From assembly GCA_029560585.1 (NCBI GenBank), contig JAKQKQ010000068.1:1-64000 (forward strand): a stretch of 64,000 nt of DNA. Reading direction: 5' to 3'. The first letter of the stretch is position 1, and each line of letters opens with the position of its first letter. The position numbers were made by a program, and so were the translations under genes. The notes under the pieces are model-generated. The model was not told the origin of the DNA. It saw nothing but the letters and a program-made list of their open reading frames with translations, and searched no databases. This document shows positions 1,657-7,738 of the stretch, in pieces. This DNA comes from Verrucomicrobiota bacterium (GTDB lineage: Bacteria; Verrucomicrobiota; Verrucomicrobiia; JADLBR01).

Positions 1657-2949
1657 ATGAAACATCCGCCGCCAATACCCGGTTCGTCCGATCCAGTAGA
1701 CCGCTCAATCTTCACACGGCTTCTCGCCGCCGATGAGCGAAAACTGCCCGGAACATTTATCGGGGGCCTTGTCCTGGTTGGGTTGACCGCGTGGCTTCTC
1801 AATCTGACCATTGCCAAGGATACATGGACACACGCCTTCTTCTTTGGACGCAGCTTCGTGCAATGGGTCTTGCTGTGTGCGTTCTTCGTGGGATTTGTCC
1901 ATCTGGTCCGGAGAATACCCGAATGGCTCCGTGAGAAGGCGGCGCTGCGCGCAATCCAGCGTGGAGGTGCCCTGCCGAAACATCAGACCCTGGTCCACAG
2001 GCGCTGGCTGAAGTGCCGCGAGGAATTGGAGGCTTCGCTCAAGAGCGGTACGCGCATTTCAGCGAAAGCCATCGCTGAGCACGACGAAGCGGAAGTCGAT
2101 GCGGCGTACCGGATGTCCGGCGATATTGTGCAGGTCTTGCCGCTGATAGGATTCTTCGGGACAGTCTTCGGACTCAGCCACGGACTATACCAGAGTTTTT
2201 TGGCTACAGGTGGCGCCACGACAAAGGATTTCGCGAAAGCCATTGCCGTCGCCTTCGACAACACCTTGCTTGGGTTGGCGCTGACCATTTTGCTGTTCAT
2301 ATTCCACAGCCTTCTGCGCAAACGCGAAGAGGCCCTCCTGTTGCAGCTGAATCTTGCCGCTGAAGAATGGCTGGAGCCGGGTCGCCAGTCGCGTGGCGAG
2401 AGAGGGGGAGCAGTCCATGTCGAAGACCAGATCAAGGCGGGCGAGGCTGTAAGGGACATGTGCGTCGCCGCGGGCGAAATGTGCACCTACATGGCGGAGA
2501 TTGCGCAGAGGCAACGAGCCGCGATCGAAGACGGGGCGCAACTGGGCAATGCGGTGCACGAGATGTGCCTTTCGGCGAAAGGCATGTGTGCGGAGATCGC
2601 GGAGGTGGTTCGTAATGCCACCGCCGACCAGCTCCTCCCATCCCTGCGGGCACTGGAGACCAAACTGAACGAATACTCCTCTGTCATTAACCAGGCATTA
2701 AATTGGTTTGCATCGCGCCAGGAGGCTCAAGAAGCCTCCATGGCATCCATTCGTGCTGTGGCGGAACAGATCCCAGGCTTCACGCAACAATTGGCACAGA
2801 ACCTCGTCGAGCGCGATGCGTCGCAACTCCGGGCTCTCTCCGACGTGGTCGCCGTTCAATCCATGAAGATACGGGAGGAAATGCGGCGGCCACGAAAGAT
2901 CCGCTTCATCGAGGAGCCTGGTGGGCCCGATGGAAATCAGGGGTTTTGA
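1657..2949 (+). CDS. MotA/TolQ/ExbB-family proton-channel protein with coiled-coil tail
   Basis: This is a 430-residue inner-membrane protein. Hydrophobic segments lie near residues 33-52, 66-85, 156-180 and 194-220. The last two form the family signature: PLIGFFGTVFGL followed by AFDNTLLGLALT. Thr169 and Thr203 sit where TolQ/ExbB proteins have the threonines of the ion path. From about residue 225 to the end the protein is charged, cytoplasmic and probably coiled-coil, a tail that TolQ and ExbB lack. Known members form pentameric channels around two single-span partners and turn ion flow into movement or force. The gene opens a tight operon: the next three genes follow with a 12-nt gap and then two 4-nt overlaps. 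No good ribosome-binding site precedes this ATG, so the start is less certain than the function. The 275 bp before it are relatively A+T-rich and may carry the promoter. Confidence 0.82.
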   Translation: MKHPPPIPGSSDPVDRSIFTRLLAADERKLPGTFIGGLVLVGLTAWLLNLTIAKDTWTHAFFFGRSFVQWVLLCAFFVGFVHLVRRIPEWLREKAALRAIQRGGALPKHQTLVHRRWLKCREELEASLKSGTRISAKAIAEHDEAEVDAAYRMSGDIVQVLPLIGFFGTVFGLSHGLYQSFLATGGATTKDFAKAIAVAFDNTLLGLALTILLFIFHSLLRKREEALLLQLNLAAEEWLEPGRQSRGERGGAVHVEDQIKAGEAVRDMCVAAGEMCTYMAEIAQRQRAAIEDGAQLGNAVHEMCLSAKGMCAEIAEVVRNATADQLLPSLRALETKLNEYSSVINQALNWFASRQEAQEASMASIRAVAEQIPGFTQQLAQNLVERDASQLRALSDVVAVQSMKIREEMRRPRKIRFIEEPGGPDGNQGF

Positions 2950-2961
2950 GTTGGATTGAGG

Positions 2962-3672
2962 ATGCACGGCGACGAAAAGACCTTCTCCGTCGATGTCCTG
3001 GCACTCGCGCTGCTGACGTGCCTGCTCGCAAGCGTGGTGGGCATCATGGTTCTGGCGGGGGATGGAAAGATCTTGAAACAGCGCAAGGAGTTTGCACAGA
3101 AGATCTCACAACTGTCCCGCCGGGTCACGGGAGAGGAAACAAGACTTAAAGAGATTCTGCAAAAGACGAATCTCGCAAAACTCGAGCACGATAAGGAGAT
3201 CCTCAATCGTAAGATTGTGGAACTGCGAAAGCTGATTGAGGTGCGCCAGGGAATCGCGAAGGCGACGTTCGAGCGGGATCGCACAAAGACGGAGTTGGAT
3301 GGGATTCAGAAGGAACTTGACGCGAGTCCCGGCCGACGAGAGATCGTGGGGAATTATCGCGGCCCCTATGTTTTGATCGAATGCCGGCAGGGGGAGGCGA
3401 TGGTATATCCGGGTAAAACCCGTATTGAATCCAAACCCGGGCCGGCGGCCTTCGGCGCGCTGATTTCGCAGATCGTCAAGGCGGGTTTCGTGGTCATCGT
3501 CGTGCGCCCCAATGGCTGGTTCAACGACTCCTATGATGCACTCCGGCCGAAGATTTACGAGGCGCTGGCGGAAAAGGAGAGAGAAATCGGTCGGAGCATA
3601 AATCGCTGTGTTTTTCCGCTTGGGGGAAAGGACCCCATAGAACCATATCTTCCACCGGAGGGAGGCCCATGA
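2962..3672 (+). CDS. ExbD/MotB-like single-span membrane protein with coiled coil (candidate stator subunit)
   Basis: This 236-residue protein has one N-terminal membrane span (about residues 11-32). Asp11 lies at its start in the context SVDVLALALL, which resembles the FIDVMLVLL segment holding the essential Asp of ExbD. Residues about 35-125 are a long charged coiled coil, followed by a small alpha/beta domain (PYVLIECRQG near 130, then FVVIVVRPNGWF near 180) that would lie in the periplasm. It ends in a Pro/Gly-rich tail. I place the start at the ATG at 2962 rather than the TTG two codons earlier. The role as partner of the upstream channel protein is inferred from gene order, topology and the Asp. 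It is not a canonical ExbD, because the coiled coil is far longer, and no OmpA-like peptidoglycan-binding domain is visible. Confidence 0.6.
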   Translation: MHGDEKTFSVDVLALALLTCLLASVVGIMVLAGDGKILKQRKEFAQKISQLSRRVTGEETRLKEILQKTNLAKLEHDKEILNRKIVELRKLIEVRQGIAKATFERDRTKTELDGIQKELDASPGRREIVGNYRGPYVLIECRQGEAMVYPGKTRIESKPGPAAFGALISQIVKAGFVVIVVRPNGWFNDSYDALRPKIYEALAEKEREIGRSINRCVFPLGGKDPIEPYLPPEGGP

Positions 3673-3929
3673 AGCGCCGTTCACGGGGGTTTGGATTTCT
3701 TGGTTTTGTTGCGCTTGCGGACATGATTTTCGCCGTCAGCGCGGGGTTGTTGTTGCTCAATCCCATCAGACCTGACGAAATGGAGGAGGACGAGGCCGAG
3801 AAGGTCCCCGACCTTTCTGCGTTACACCGAATGATCAATGCGGCCGAGCAGCAGGTTTCGGAAGTAGAATCGCTGGCCAAGACGACAAAGGAGGCGGTGC
3901 AAAATACTCTATCCGAGACGAAGCAATGA
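3669..3929 (+). CDS. Small single-span membrane protein with Asp in the span (second ExbD-like candidate)
   Basis: This 86-residue protein has a basic N-terminus, one span (about residues 9-31), an acidic linker, and a short predicted coiled coil to the end. The span contains Asp18 in FVALADMIFAV, again in the N-terminal half of the only membrane helix, as in ExbD and TolR. Its start overlaps the stop of the gene before it in an ATGA, and its own stop overlaps the next start in the same way, so all three are probably translated together. I recognise no named family. A heterodimer with the preceding protein in a 5:2 channel-stator complex would explain two different Asp-bearing spans, but this is inference. 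Confidence 0.55.
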   Translation: MKRRSRGFGFLGFVALADMIFAVSAGLLLLNPIRPDEMEEDEAEKVPDLSALHRMINAAEQQVSEVESLAKTTKEAVQNTLSETKQ

Positions 3930-4855
3930 GCGGGATGATGGTTCCTTCAAGGCGAAAGGGCGGGAGTGCGGGACGGCTGCTATGCACGGCATGCCTTTGG
4001 GGCATGTTGGCCGGGGGCGCGTCCCACGGTGTTGAGTTTTCCGACGAGGCTGTGGCCGCCATCAACGAAAGGCTCGTGCGGCTAAGTGAACGCCTCGCGA
4101 CCTTGAAGACAACCATAACTGAGGTGGCCGCCACCGCCAGCACGCTCTCGACAATTCACGGGTCGGGGGAGGTTCTGAGTACCAACGCCGAACCCATGCC
4201 CGATATGGGGGTGCTGCAAGCGAACCACGAAGCCCTTGAAAGACAATATAAGGAGATTGTAAAGGATGCGCCGGCCGATCTTCCTGCCACAATGTCTCTC
4301 GAGGACTTGGAGAAACGGAGGGAGGGAGTGGAAAAGGAACGGAGGGCGCTTGCCGAGAAGCTGGATGACCTGAATTCTTCAGGGGCGGATGGCAGTGGAA
4401 AGCTCGTGCTGAAGGCGGAATCCCAGTCGAACGCCGGGCAGAAATTCATCGCGTTACTCCTGACGAACGGACGTGTTGTCCCGCAACGAGAACCCTATTT
4501 TGCAGGGCAATTCATGCTTGGCCGGAACAACAATACTGGGCAGCTCGTTCCGTGCGTCTCGTTCAAACGCCAGACAGATGGCATTCTCGCGGAGGAAGCC
4601 GTCTCGCAAGGAGGGATTCTCGACAACATCATCAGGCAGGATGCAGCAAGTCCCACAAGCCATGTATTCCTCCTGCGCGTGTGTTCGGATTCGGTATCGG
4701 CGTTTCACACGGTGAGGAGGGCCGTGGCGGCGCGCGGCTTTGGCTTCTCTTGGGACACCGCGGAAGACTCGAGCGTGCTGATCCCTTTGAATTCGCAGGC
4801 GGGCGGCAGTTCGCGCGGTCCGGGCCTGGGTGTCTACAGACCCGGAATGAATTAG
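3926..4855 (+). CDS. Exported coiled-coil protein of the ExbB-like cassette
   Basis: This 309-residue protein has a probable signal peptide (residues about 17-38, ending near ASHG). A helical, charged region rich in Glu, Leu and Lys follows to about residue 155 (LEDLEKRREGVEKERR). The C-terminal domain begins FIALLLTNGRVV and contains HVFLLRVCSD...VRRAVAARGFGF. The layout of this last domain resembles the C-terminal domain of the protein encoded at 2962-3672: a strand, a link, a second hydrophobic strand, then a helix with spaced Arg. It is probably periplasmic and could contact the two stator candidates. It is the last gene of the operon, and its start overlaps the previous stop by 4 nt. I recognise no named family. 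Confidence 0.55.
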   Translation: MSGMMVPSRRKGGSAGRLLCTACLWGMLAGGASHGVEFSDEAVAAINERLVRLSERLATLKTTITEVAATASTLSTIHGSGEVLSTNAEPMPDMGVLQANHEALERQYKEIVKDAPADLPATMSLEDLEKRREGVEKERRALAEKLDDLNSSGADGSGKLVLKAESQSNAGQKFIALLLTNGRVVPQREPYFAGQFMLGRNNNTGQLVPCVSFKRQTDGILAEEAVSQGGILDNIIRQDAASPTSHVFLLRVCSDSVSAFHTVRRAVAARGFGFSWDTAEDSSVLIPLNSQAGGSSRGPGLGVYRPGMN

Positions 4856-5007: not shown

Positions 5008-5874
5008 TCACCCAAAGGTAAAGAATTGGAATTCGCCCTTGAACCCAGGAAGACATCTGCTGGCCAGAGGGCGGGAGGCAAGTTGCTTGCCGAGTCCGGT
5101 GTTAGAGGCGGCGCTCAGGAGCCTCAATACGCCCAAGGTCTTGGCAAGTTTCTCCATACGAAACACAAACGTAGTGTCCGGACTCATGATTAGTTCTTCA
5201 CCGCTGAGGCAGCCAGAAAAAACTGCCTCGCCCTTGTGAACCACGAACCGAAACGGTGGATTGGCCCGGCATTGGAGGGTGCAGAGAGCATGTACGGCGT
5301 TGGACAAACCGACGCGCGCCCGCTTCGAATGCCTCCAGTAGGCGAAGAAGCCATCGCCCAGGAACTTGTTTACGATCCCTTCGTGCCGTTCGATCACGCG
5401 CCAACACTCGTCGACCCAGCTGCCGACCAGACGTGCTACAGCCTCAGCGCCCATTTGCTGGCTCAATACCGAATAACCCACGATGTCAGCGACGAGAAAC
5501 CAGCACGCATGCCGATCAATTTCGGGACGAGTGCCCCGAGTGCCCGTCGTTTCTTCGGAGCAGTCCAGCTTTTTACCACCCCTGTGACGGAAGACATGGG
5601 TATGTCCACCGAACAAGACACGGTCGCCGTCGTGCAACCGCTGCGGGCGCATCAGCAGGCGCCCGTTAACGTAGGTGCCGTTGCGACTGCCGAGATCCGC
5701 GAGCCAGAACTGACCTTCCTGCCGCAGGATTACCGCATGCCGACGCGACATCATCTCGGAAGCGAGCATGTGATCGTTGCCACGCTGGCGACCAATCGTG
5801 AGACGTTCGCCGACTACGATCTGGGTGCCCGCTTCGGTTTCCAGCCAAGCTTCGGATTGGGGTCTCTCACTCAT
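5008..5874 (-). CDS. FHA domain-class III nucleotide cyclase-like protein
   Basis: This 288-residue cytoplasmic protein has two parts. The N-terminal FHA domain (about residues 15-95) has the phosphothreonine-reading motifs GR, SRRH and NGTYVNG. The second part (about 115-280) resembles class III adenylate/guanylate cyclases. It has the first metal Asp in VADIVGYS and the second in KFLGDGFFAYW. The region that normally reads VNxAARL, with the transition-state Asn and Arg, here reads TFVFRMEKLA: the Arg may be kept but the Asn is missing, so activity is doubtful. I chose the ATG at 5874 over a TTG two codons earlier. A kinase fragment lies just upstream, and FHA proteins often read kinase-made phosphothreonine. 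The gene is convergent with the ExbB-like cassette. Confidence 0.82.
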   Translation of the reverse strand: MSERPQSEAWLETEAGTQIVVGERLTIGRQRGNDHMLASEMMSRRHAVILRQEGQFWLADLGSRNGTYVNGRLLMRPQRLHDGDRVLFGGHTHVFRHRGGKKLDCSEETTGTRGTRPEIDRHACWFLVADIVGYSVLSQQMGAEAVARLVGSWVDECWRVIERHEGIVNKFLGDGFFAYWRHSKRARVGLSNAVHALCTLQCRANPPFRFVVHKGEAVFSGCLSGEELIMSPDTTFVFRMEKLAKTLGVLRLLSAASNTGLGKQLASRPLASRCLPGFKGEFQFFTFG

Positions 5875-5999
5875 TACCAAATCGAAACCGTGCCGTCCCA
5901 GAATGAACGACCAACTGCAGAGTTATATTGCCTCGGCGGGCGCAACTCGGCAACAGCAAGATTTCGCCGGTGTGGTCTGTTGGGCGAGCGACGCCAAAG

Positions 6000-6170
6000 C
6001 TACCATGGCATCACCTTGATGGCCACCTCCCGGTTCAGGCTGATCTGCCGGGCGCGGTACACCTTGCCCATCGCCCCCCTGCCCAATAGACCCTCGATCA
6101 CGAAATCGCCCAGCCGGGTGCCGGCCAGCGGGTCGATGCGCGCTTCACCTCCTCCCGGTGCCTCGGCCAT
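6000..6170 (-). pseudogene. N-terminal fragment of a Ser/Thr protein kinase
   Basis: On the minus strand an ATG at 6168-6170 opens a 56-codon frame that ends at TAG (6000-6002). The translation contains the kinase glycine loop LLGRGAMGKVYRA and the catalytic-lysine strand REVAIKVM, then stops two residues later. The first tenth of a Hanks-type kinase is present and the rest of the catalytic domain is absent. The C-terminal part of a kinase of the same general type starts on the opposite strand directly beside it. The fragment is too short to be a working kinase. Confidence 0.8.
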
Positions 6171-7738
6171 CGTCAGCCGCCCTCGGGATCCTCGCCGCGG
6201 TCTCCGCCCTCTTCACCGCCAGCGTCGTCGCCCAGCGAAACCTCGCCGTCGCGAACGAGAGGCGCGCGGTGGAGAGCGCGGGCCGCGCGGAACGCGCGCT
6301 AGAGGACCTGAAGAGGAGCGAGACACTCGCCCTAGAGAACGCGCGGCGCGCGGAGCTGGCGCTGGCCGATTTGAAAGCGACCGCCCCGACATTTGAGGCG
6401 CAGGCCAGATCCCTGCTTGAGGACGGAAACTTCGACGGCGCCGTGGAGAAAATCGGCTTCGCGATTCAGCTCGATAGCTCAAATCCCGGTTACCGCCTGG
6501 TCCGCGCCAACCTCCTGGAGGCCACGCAGCGCCTCGGCGATGCCGCGGAGGAATACCGCCGCATCCTAGCGCTACGCCCAGGCGACGCGGTGGCCAAGGC
6601 GAATCTCGAGCTCTGCGAGCGGCTGCTGACCGAAAACGGCGGCGCGCCCGCGCTGCGAAAGGATCTCCAGAAGCGCCTCCTGGATTCCCTGCGGGAGCAG
6701 GACCGGCTGATTGAGGCGGGGCAGTTGAACGCGCTGTTCGAGCCCGACTTTGCCATCGCGCGCGCGACCCTCGACGCGCGCCTCAAGGAATACAGCACGC
6801 AGGCCGGATGGAAGGACATGGGGCGCGTCACCCGGCTTCCGAACAACAGTTTCCGCCTCAATCTCACCCATCTCAAGCTCGGCGATCTCTCCATCCTCAG
6901 GGGCATCCCCATCTCCGAGCTAAACCTCTTCGGGCCGGCAGAAGGGCGGGATGCCGACGCGCTGCCGCCCCTGCTAAAGGGCCTAGCCGGCCTGCCCCTG
7001 AAGAGCCTGGACATCTCCGGGTGGGTGGCCCTGAAAGACCTTTCTCCCCTGCGGGGCCTCCCGCTGGAGTCGCTCAAGCTGGCCAATACGAAGGTGGCCG
7101 ACCTCGCCCCCTTGGCCGGGATGAGGCTTCGCGTTCTCGATATCGGCCACACGCCCATATCCGATCTCGCGCCGCTGGCCGGGATGCCGCTGGAGCATCT
7201 CGACATCCGCTACACCCGGGTCGCCGACCTGATCCCCCTGAGGGGCGCGCCGCTGAAGGGGCTTAATATCTGGCAATCCCACGTCGTCGATATCTCACCA
7301 TTGGCCGGCGCCCCACTTGAAGAACTTGCCCTGCTGCAGACGGACGTCGCCGATATTGCGCCACTGGCGAATTGCCCCACGCTGAAGGTCCTGAGCATCT
7401 ATGGCACCAAGGTCAGCGACCTGACTCCACTGGGGAAACTCAAGCTCGTTGACCTCGCTTGCCATTGGTGCAAGGTCACAAACATTGAACCTCTCCGCGG
7501 CCAACCGTTGCGGAGCATTAATCTAGGTGGCCTGCGCGTCACCGACGTGAGTCCATTGGCCGATTGCCCCACCCTTGAGTCAGTCGCACTGAACACCGCC
7601 GCCAAAAACGTGGAGGTTCTCCGAAAACTGACTAGGCTTAAGTTGATTTCCACACGTCTGTCTGGATGGGGGCCCGCGCAAACGGCCGCTGAATTCTGGA
7701 AGGAGTACGACGCCAAGAGGGCCGGCGGGACAAAATAG
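6158..7738 (+). pseudogene. C-terminal part of a receptor-like kinase: membrane span, TPR and leucine-rich repeats, kinase domain lost
   Basis: The frame runs 526 codons from a GTG. After about five arbitrary residues it reads as a membrane span (ALGILAAVSALFTASVVAQ), then a coiled coil with repeated ERA/ENARRAE units. TPR-like helices follow (about residues 85-160), then at least nine leucine-rich repeats with the consensus LxxLDIxxTxVxDLxPLxG (about 225-500). This is the usual C-terminal half of planctomycete and verrucomicrobial Ser/Thr kinases, but no catalytic domain precedes it. Homology begins at about 6171, exactly where the inverted kinase N-terminus begins on the other strand. The frame is long and clean, so the break is recent or the truncated protein is still made. 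The repeats near 7030-7580 are all intact. Confidence 0.75.

Follow-up and report, generated by a model that had tools for sequence, protein, structure and literature searches.

A conserved four-gene ExbB-like cassette in Verrucomicrobiota: a candidate motor with a mixed axle

Motors of the 5:2 type use protons to drive flagella, the maintenance of the outer membrane, the uptake of nutrients and defence against phages. How stepwise rotation arises from two equivalent aspartates in a symmetric axle is still being worked out. In the Zorya ZorAB pair, ZorB is a MotB-like OmpA protein. Here we describe a cassette of four genes, headed by a diverged ExbB/TolQ/MotA-type channel gene, at positions 1657-4855 of a 64,000-nucleotide stretch of DNA from a Verrucomicrobiota bacterium (the window; positions 1 to 64,000 of contig JAKQKQ010000068.1, assembly GCA_029560585.1). 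The cassette is conserved as a unit in related genomes, and its products may well form an inner-membrane motor of the 5:2 type in which the Asp-bearing axle subunit is split into two proteins.

The nearest published idea concerns TolQ-like motors with transpore-helix vWA partners, which include representatives from Verrucomicrobia (Mol Biol Evol 2025, PMC12204202). These motors lack canonical TolR/ExbD; their Asp pore helix is fused to another periplasmic domain, and the partners are often unlike pairs. The AglRQS gliding motor combines one MotA/TolQ-like protein with two MotB/TolR-like proteins, the question of a heterodimer being left open (PMC9389320). A literature search, outside of which preprints and most subscription papers fell, returned no description of the four-gene set. 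A first-pass annotation of the DNA had likewise known of none, but the related idea published in 2025 qualifies that statement.

The four genes and their conservation

All four genes lie on the forward strand. Gene 1 (P1, 1657-2949) is an open reading frame (ORF) of 430 amino acids (aa). Gene 2 (P2, 2962-3672) encodes 236 aa counted from the ATG, with an upstream TTG at 2956. Gene 3 (P3, 3669-3929) encodes 86 aa, a single span followed by a short periplasmic coil, and gene 4 (P4, 3926-4855) encodes an exported protein of 309 aa with coiled coils and a C-terminal domain discussed below. The ORF positions reproduce the boundaries, the 12-nt spacing between P1 and P2 and the ATGA overlaps at the P2/P3 and P3/P4 junctions that the first-pass annotation had reported. 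Its description of two single-span partners and one exported protein behind the channel also agrees with our data: hydropathy gives P1 four transmembrane (TM)-like windows and P2 and P3 one N-terminal span each, no segment of the window P4 exceeds the threshold, and the relatives of P4 have signal-peptide-like N-termini.

The cassette is a conserved unit and not a chance arrangement, since the set recurs in four further genomes, the 4-nt overlap between P3 and P4 is kept in 5/5 loci, and the ratio of nonsynonymous to synonymous substitution rates (dN/dS) is 0.33-0.39 for each of the four genes (one pair, G084-G325). A homologue search with P2 among 93 relatives yielded one strong match, in G084, where all four genes are present in the same order. 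Looking for the same genes in order elsewhere, as had been proposed with the first description, we found them with order and strand preserved in G084, G325, G558 (Candidatus Synoicihabitans palmerolidicus, matching record L041) and G514 (an Opitutaceae metagenome-assembled genome, JABIRI010000340.1). G498 holds at least part of gene 4. All five genomes belong to a single genus (g54, Actomonas/Synoicihabitans, of the Opitutaceae), and their homologues share 18-30% identity with the window proteins in full-length alignments. Profile searches with P2 and P4 in a 388-genome sample of the phylum both returned the same three genomes as strong matches; weak matches in other genomes (E 1e-4 to 1e-2) fell mainly on coiled-coil columns and were treated as noise. 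Alignments of the cassette proteins are shallow, with five sequences.

The distribution in the lineage of the window is patchy, since the set is missing from G001, a genome of the same genus as the window genome. In G558 (L042:5300-6650), genes 2-4 are intact but gene 1 has two frameshifts, which may reflect decay or an assembly error. Searches of phage, plasmid and viral collections with P2 found no relatives, and an origin of the cassette from such elements was rejected for lack of matches there.

P1 is a diverged ExbB/TolQ/MotA channel, as indicated by its match to PF01618 (MotA_ExbB; residues 140-230, E 7e-13, 48.8 bits against a cut-off of 22.9). The corresponding channel core (2074-2346) contains Thr169 (GFFGTV) and Thr203 (FDNTLL), which correspond in the alignment to the pair of pore threonines in TolQ/ExbB; both columns are conserved in the alignment of the wider class described below. 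The best relative of the P1 profile in the PDB was TolQ (8odt), a weak match (E 0.008). A scan of genome contigs with the single P1 sequence gave no match, and an alignment was needed to find relatives. The TM-like windows of P1 (residues 34-52, 66-84, 155-173 and 198-216) are arranged as an N-terminal pair, followed by a cytoplasmic loop, the conserved channel pair and a coiled-coil tail of roughly 190 residues. Because of this four-TM topology, the tail is predicted to be cytoplasmic. It had been noticed in the first-pass annotation, which assigned to coiled coils the passing of force across the envelope; the tail is present, but from the cytoplasm it cannot reach across. The periplasmic coiled or helical parts of the cassette are only a long helix in P2 and the coils of P4. 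The P1 tail ends in the motif RPRKIRFIEEPGG (2887-2925), which is similar to RPKSFTVTE in Actomonas and, in some members of the wider class, to RPRVITLREE.

For P2, P3 and P4, no match in Pfam, NCBIfam or PADLOC was credible, the scattered weak ones being coiled-coil noise. The AlphaFold2 (AF2) model of P2 (mean predicted local distance difference test score (pLDDT) 73, from a five-sequence alignment) shows a span at residues 10-31, a helix of 86 residues (36-121) and a C-terminal alpha/beta domain with the order E-E-E-H-E-H-E. When this model was compared with the PDB, the top Foldseek probability among the matches listed (0.90) went to 5by4, the periplasmic domain of TolR, which is no more than suggestive of a TolR-like domain. 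An Asp is missing from the P2 span in four homologues; Asp11 of the window P2 lies at the edge of the span and is not conserved. P3, in turn, has Asp18 (codon 3720-3722) in mid-membrane within a span of the form ADxxFAxSAxLxLL, and this residue is invariant in 5/5 diverged aligned copies. The AF2 model of P4 has a pLDDT of 60 overall and of 80-90 over much of residues 170-280, which form a C-terminal alpha/beta domain.

A wider ExbB-B1-B2 class

A profile of the P1 channel domain detected P1-like channels (E <=1e-9) in 69/388 genomes of the phylum. We examined 20 of the channel neighbourhoods; the channel ORF was found in 19, a second gene (B1) in 18 of these 19, and a third (B2) was recovered for 16. 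The B1 span resembles 'SLFPFLSILACLIG', and the C-terminal domain of B1 contains VEC..LIRPDG. In B2, an Asp-bearing span, 'LDSLMDALTNVVAVLILI', is joined by a linker to a C-terminal domain containing PDSF..F..AR......GW; the Asp of the B2 span is invariant (10/10). The B2 profile matches 49/388 genomes. Most of the B2 matches (56/69) have a P1-like channel gene within 5 kb upstream in the same orientation, and 43/388 genomes carry such a pair. Pfam, NCBIfam and PADLOC gave nothing credible for the tested B1 and B2 proteins, and the cassette and the class appear to be unnamed as a family in the sources searched.

Profile-profile scores were judged against 144-150 column-shuffled versions of the query. 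By this measure B1 and B2 are paralogues, with scores of 42.2 for the C-terminal domains (shuffle maximum 13.2) and 52.9 for the spans (18.3). B1 also scored above the shuffles against ExbD, both with its span (19.3, shuffle maximum 16.5) and with its domain (18.9, 15.6), and the B2 domain reached 14.2 against ExbD (13.4). At the position of the ExbD Asp, most B1 proteins have Ser, Ala or Cys, and those of L123, L126 and L129 have Asp. Axles with one Asp and axles with two may both occur in the class.

The cassette is best described from these comparisons as a four-gene variant of this widespread three-gene class. P2 reads as a B1-type protein because its profile scores against B1 exceed the shuffles: the C-terminal domain (3349-3669; PYVLIEC..VRPNGW..FPLGG..I) scored 39.2 against the B1 domain, with a shuffle maximum of 21.3 and 0/150 shuffles as good. 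The C-terminal domain of P4 (4433-4795; EPYF...VFLLRVCSDSVSAFHTVRRAVAARGFGFSW) scored 56.2 against B2 (shuffle maximum 18.7, 0/150 as good). Moreover, a B2 profile built without cassette sequences found the P4 gene of G325 in a genome-wide search (E 1.7e-7), the match being confined to positions 51-204, outside the span. Because the scores beat the shuffles and the B2 profile finds the P4 of G325, we assign to P4 a periplasmic domain of the B1/B2 class, best matched by B2. In a tree of channel domains, in which several long end branches were flagged, P1 and three relatives form one clade (support 97/99); this clade groups with the channels of the class and of an operon on G000:C155, a contig of the window genome, and is split with 100/100 support from seven canonical ExbB/TolQ paralogues that this genome also encodes.

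Cassette and class share the channel clade, the gene order, a B1 protein, the B2 periplasmic domain, an Asp in the span of the second partner and, in part of the class, a channel C-terminal motif like RPRxITxxEE. They differ in that B2 of the class is one protein comprising span, linker and domain, whereas the cassette has the P3 span and the P4 domain in separate genes. That P3 and P4 represent a split B2 is what we infer from gene order, the Asp and the P4 domain.

The class itself is varied. In L132 (4501-6558) and L135 (5786-7909, both in channel orientation), a predicted exported protein follows directly after the class channel, in L132 before the B1 gene. The L132 protein matches NHL beta-propeller repeats (E 3e-8); it is possible that the exported protein of these two loci is a target-binding part of the machine. 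Class channels also occur in L122, L124, L138, L134, L136 and L137, and several of these channels carry zinc-ribbon-like CPxC motifs at the N-terminus. Downstream of B2, L122 and L138 encode a second span protein and a membrane protein resembling PrsW (by eye). The class member L125 adjoins fabZ-like and lpxA-like genes.

With ExbB-ExbD, TolQ-TolR and MotA-MotB the cassette shares the channel fold, the pore threonines, a single-span partner with an invariant membrane Asp and, as suggested by the P2 model, a TolR-like domain. In contrast to these systems, its partners are unlike, one of them lacking the Asp in its homologues, the channel has a long cytoplasmic tail, there is no PF02472 or OmpA-like match, and no TonB, TolA or Pal gene lies nearby (judged on the right side). 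P2, P3, P4 and their relatives do not match PF02472 (ExbD/TolR), so that the close ExbD/TolR family match which would have spoken against the first description was not found with this model. Genes 2-4 also gave no Pfam match to TonB or TolA, the SHLS motif not having been formally searched. Compared directly with ExbD (hhalign), the domains of P2 and P4 did no better than shuffles (35/150 and 24/150 as good), and the link to the ExbD/TolR domain, a distant one, appears only through the B1/B2 class. The cassette had been presented as without a known family. This does not apply to P1, which belongs to PF01618; it holds for P2-P4 in the family databases, yet these proteins seem distantly related to the ExbD/TolR fold by way of the class.

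The transpore-helix vWA motors (PMC12204202) resemble the cassette in their TolQ-like channel, the unlike partner pair and the absence of a canonical TolR, but no vWA match was found in P2-P4 or in the tested B1/B2 proteins. In the operon on G000:C155 (L028:4090-7719), an ExbB-like channel of the P1 class clade is encoded between two FHA-like proteins, followed by a PP2C-like protein and by a vWA-domain protein (E 1e-7) whose single span contains an Asp. The operon looks like one of the PMC12204202 motors joined to phospho-signalling genes, and its vWA match makes it a better candidate for that group than the cassette. AglRQS likewise has one channel protein and two partner proteins; going by description rather than by sequence, both Agl partners are Asp-bearing and TolR-like, and there is no such exported fourth protein. 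Elsewhere, L024 and L025 (G000:C102) contain an exported coiled-coil protein and an ExbB with a long N-terminal extension, with ExbD in L025, an arrangement that is DUF3450/TtpC-like (by eye).

A candidate motor with a mixed axle

We lean, with some confidence, towards the cassette encoding a proton-driven inner-membrane motor of the 5:2 type with a mixed axle, in which the Asp-bearing subunit is split into two proteins. The complex, its stoichiometry, the pairing of subunits, the proton drive, the transfer of force, the target and the biological role would all follow from analogy with MotAB, ExbBD and TolQR (PMC9389320). P1 would form the channel ring, presumably pentameric. The axle would combine P2, which has no conserved protonatable residue in its span, with the Asp-bearing span of P3. 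Exported P4 would contribute a periplasmic domain of B2 type, which relatives have fused with the Asp span in one protein, and would dock on P3 and P2 through coiled coils; P3 and P4 would together replace one B2 chain, coupled by translation through their conserved 4-nt overlap. Protons would bind Asp18 of P3, and their flow past this residue and the threonine ring of P1 would turn the axle against the ring, moving the long P2 helix and P4 in the periplasm. The periplasmic domains would most likely act on peptidoglycan or the outer membrane, and the cytoplasmic tail of P1 may dock a regulator.

P3 is probably the proton carrier, to judge from its position in the operon, from an intramembrane Asp that is invariant, as it is in B2, and from a P2 span that lacks an Asp in four homologues. 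Against the ExbD spans, the P3 span scored 13.4 with the Asp in register, and 1/150 shuffles was as good (hhalign).

Several observations weigh against this motor. A control membrane segment scored 15.2 against ExbD, above the P3 span, and against the B2 spans the P3 span was not significant (73/150 shuffles as good), which is why the split of B2 has to be argued from gene order, the Asp and the P4 domain. Column shuffles lose the helix periodicity, so that the significance of all span scores is overstated. With cropped domains, P4 is nearly as B1-like as B2-like (41.7, shuffle maximum 18.2, vs 43.5, shuffle maximum 19.6). The structural match of P2 to TolR 5by4 has an E-value of 0.058 and a target TM-score of 0.49 (Foldseek), and a fold search of the PDB with the P4 model gave no clear match and none to TolR.

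The arrangement of the axle is the more delicate part of the proposal. Only tentatively do we suggest that it is asymmetric, one of the two pore helices holding the proton-binding Asp as a mini-protein separate from the exported domain that it drives. P1 could instead form a pentamer around two copies of P3, as in MotB, with P2 and P4 at the side or in the periplasm, transducing force like TonB/TolA. P3 is the sole partner with a conserved Asp, the P2 span lacking it as noted, and in the well-studied 5:2 motors two Asp-bearing subunits dimerize to form the axle (PMC9389320), all of which favours such a homodimer. We nevertheless consider it unlikely: the P2 span groups with the B1 spans (17.4, shuffle maximum 17.0), and since the B1 spans are paralogues of the B2 spans, which bear the Asp, and can themselves be aligned with the pore helix of ExbD, a position of the P2 span inside the ring is suggested.

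It would be more surprising still if the four genes had no proton coupling and formed a structural periplasmic scaffold or a sensor. P2 and P4 are mostly coiled coil, and the frameshifted gene 1 of G558 and the absence of the set from G001 would fit such a role, but even strongly diverged copies retain the P3 Asp and the threonines of the pore, and the dN/dS values are low for all four genes in the pair compared.

A Zorya-like antiphage system, with a long-tailed channel switching an effector, is highly improbable, for although the cassette resembles ZorAB in the long cytoplasmic tail of its channel, here ending in a C-terminal motif, and in a weak similarity to ZorA2 (P1, E 0.001; one class channel, E 2e-6), genes 2-4 have no match to the OmpA protein ZorB or to the effectors ZorC/D/E (PADLOC), relatives of P2 are absent from the phage, plasmid and viral collections searched, and three Actomonas copies (G084, G325 and G558) adjoin a gene like that of apolipoprotein N-acyltransferase (Lnt), two of them (G325 and G558) also secA (by eye). 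We regard the cassette as neither Zorya nor a canonical ExbD/TolR system.

As for what the favoured motor acts on, the most plausible guess is upkeep of the outer membrane or of peptidoglycan. It is prompted by the TolR-like domain and, weakly, by neighbours in the cassette copies and the class (Lnt-like, secA, fabZ-like and lpxA-like genes), which may be coincidence.

Surroundings and significance

The window forms the left end of C2, a contig of a 7.1-Mb genome. Here and at the other loci, many neighbouring genes were identified by eye. To the left of the cassette, 1.6 kb of integrase-like fragments precede the contig end, with broken integrase-like ORFs at 137-1421 on the reverse strand; the genome has a similar ORF, with an rve domain (E 4.5e-4), on a different contig (L033:3744-4820). 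The immediate neighbours on the right are an FHA protein and a TPR/LRR protein. The former (5008-5880, reverse strand, convergent with the cassette) has an FHA domain (E 1e-20) and a cyclase-like C-terminal part, which gave no Pfam cyclase match at 0.001. This gene was considered as a fifth member of the cassette and rejected, because other copies have no adjoining FHA gene. The latter (6158-7738, forward strand) combines TPR with leucine-rich repeats (LRR_4, E 6e-17). The first-pass annotation had remarked on the lack of TonB, Tol or OmpA neighbours; this is borne out on the right and can be judged there only, because the contig ends 1.6 kb to the left.

The class adds to the phylum a common, uncharacterised envelope machine, present in 43/388 sampled genomes, that family databases leave unnamed. 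A natural family with unlike axle subunits, in which most B1 proteins lack the Asp, would allow a direct test of how stepwise rotation arises. If our reading of the cassette is true, its proton-carrying helix is uncoupled from its own periplasmic domain, which would be useful for the same test. The cassette would then be a naturally split motor with one proton site, and one branch of a wider class of mixed-axle motors.

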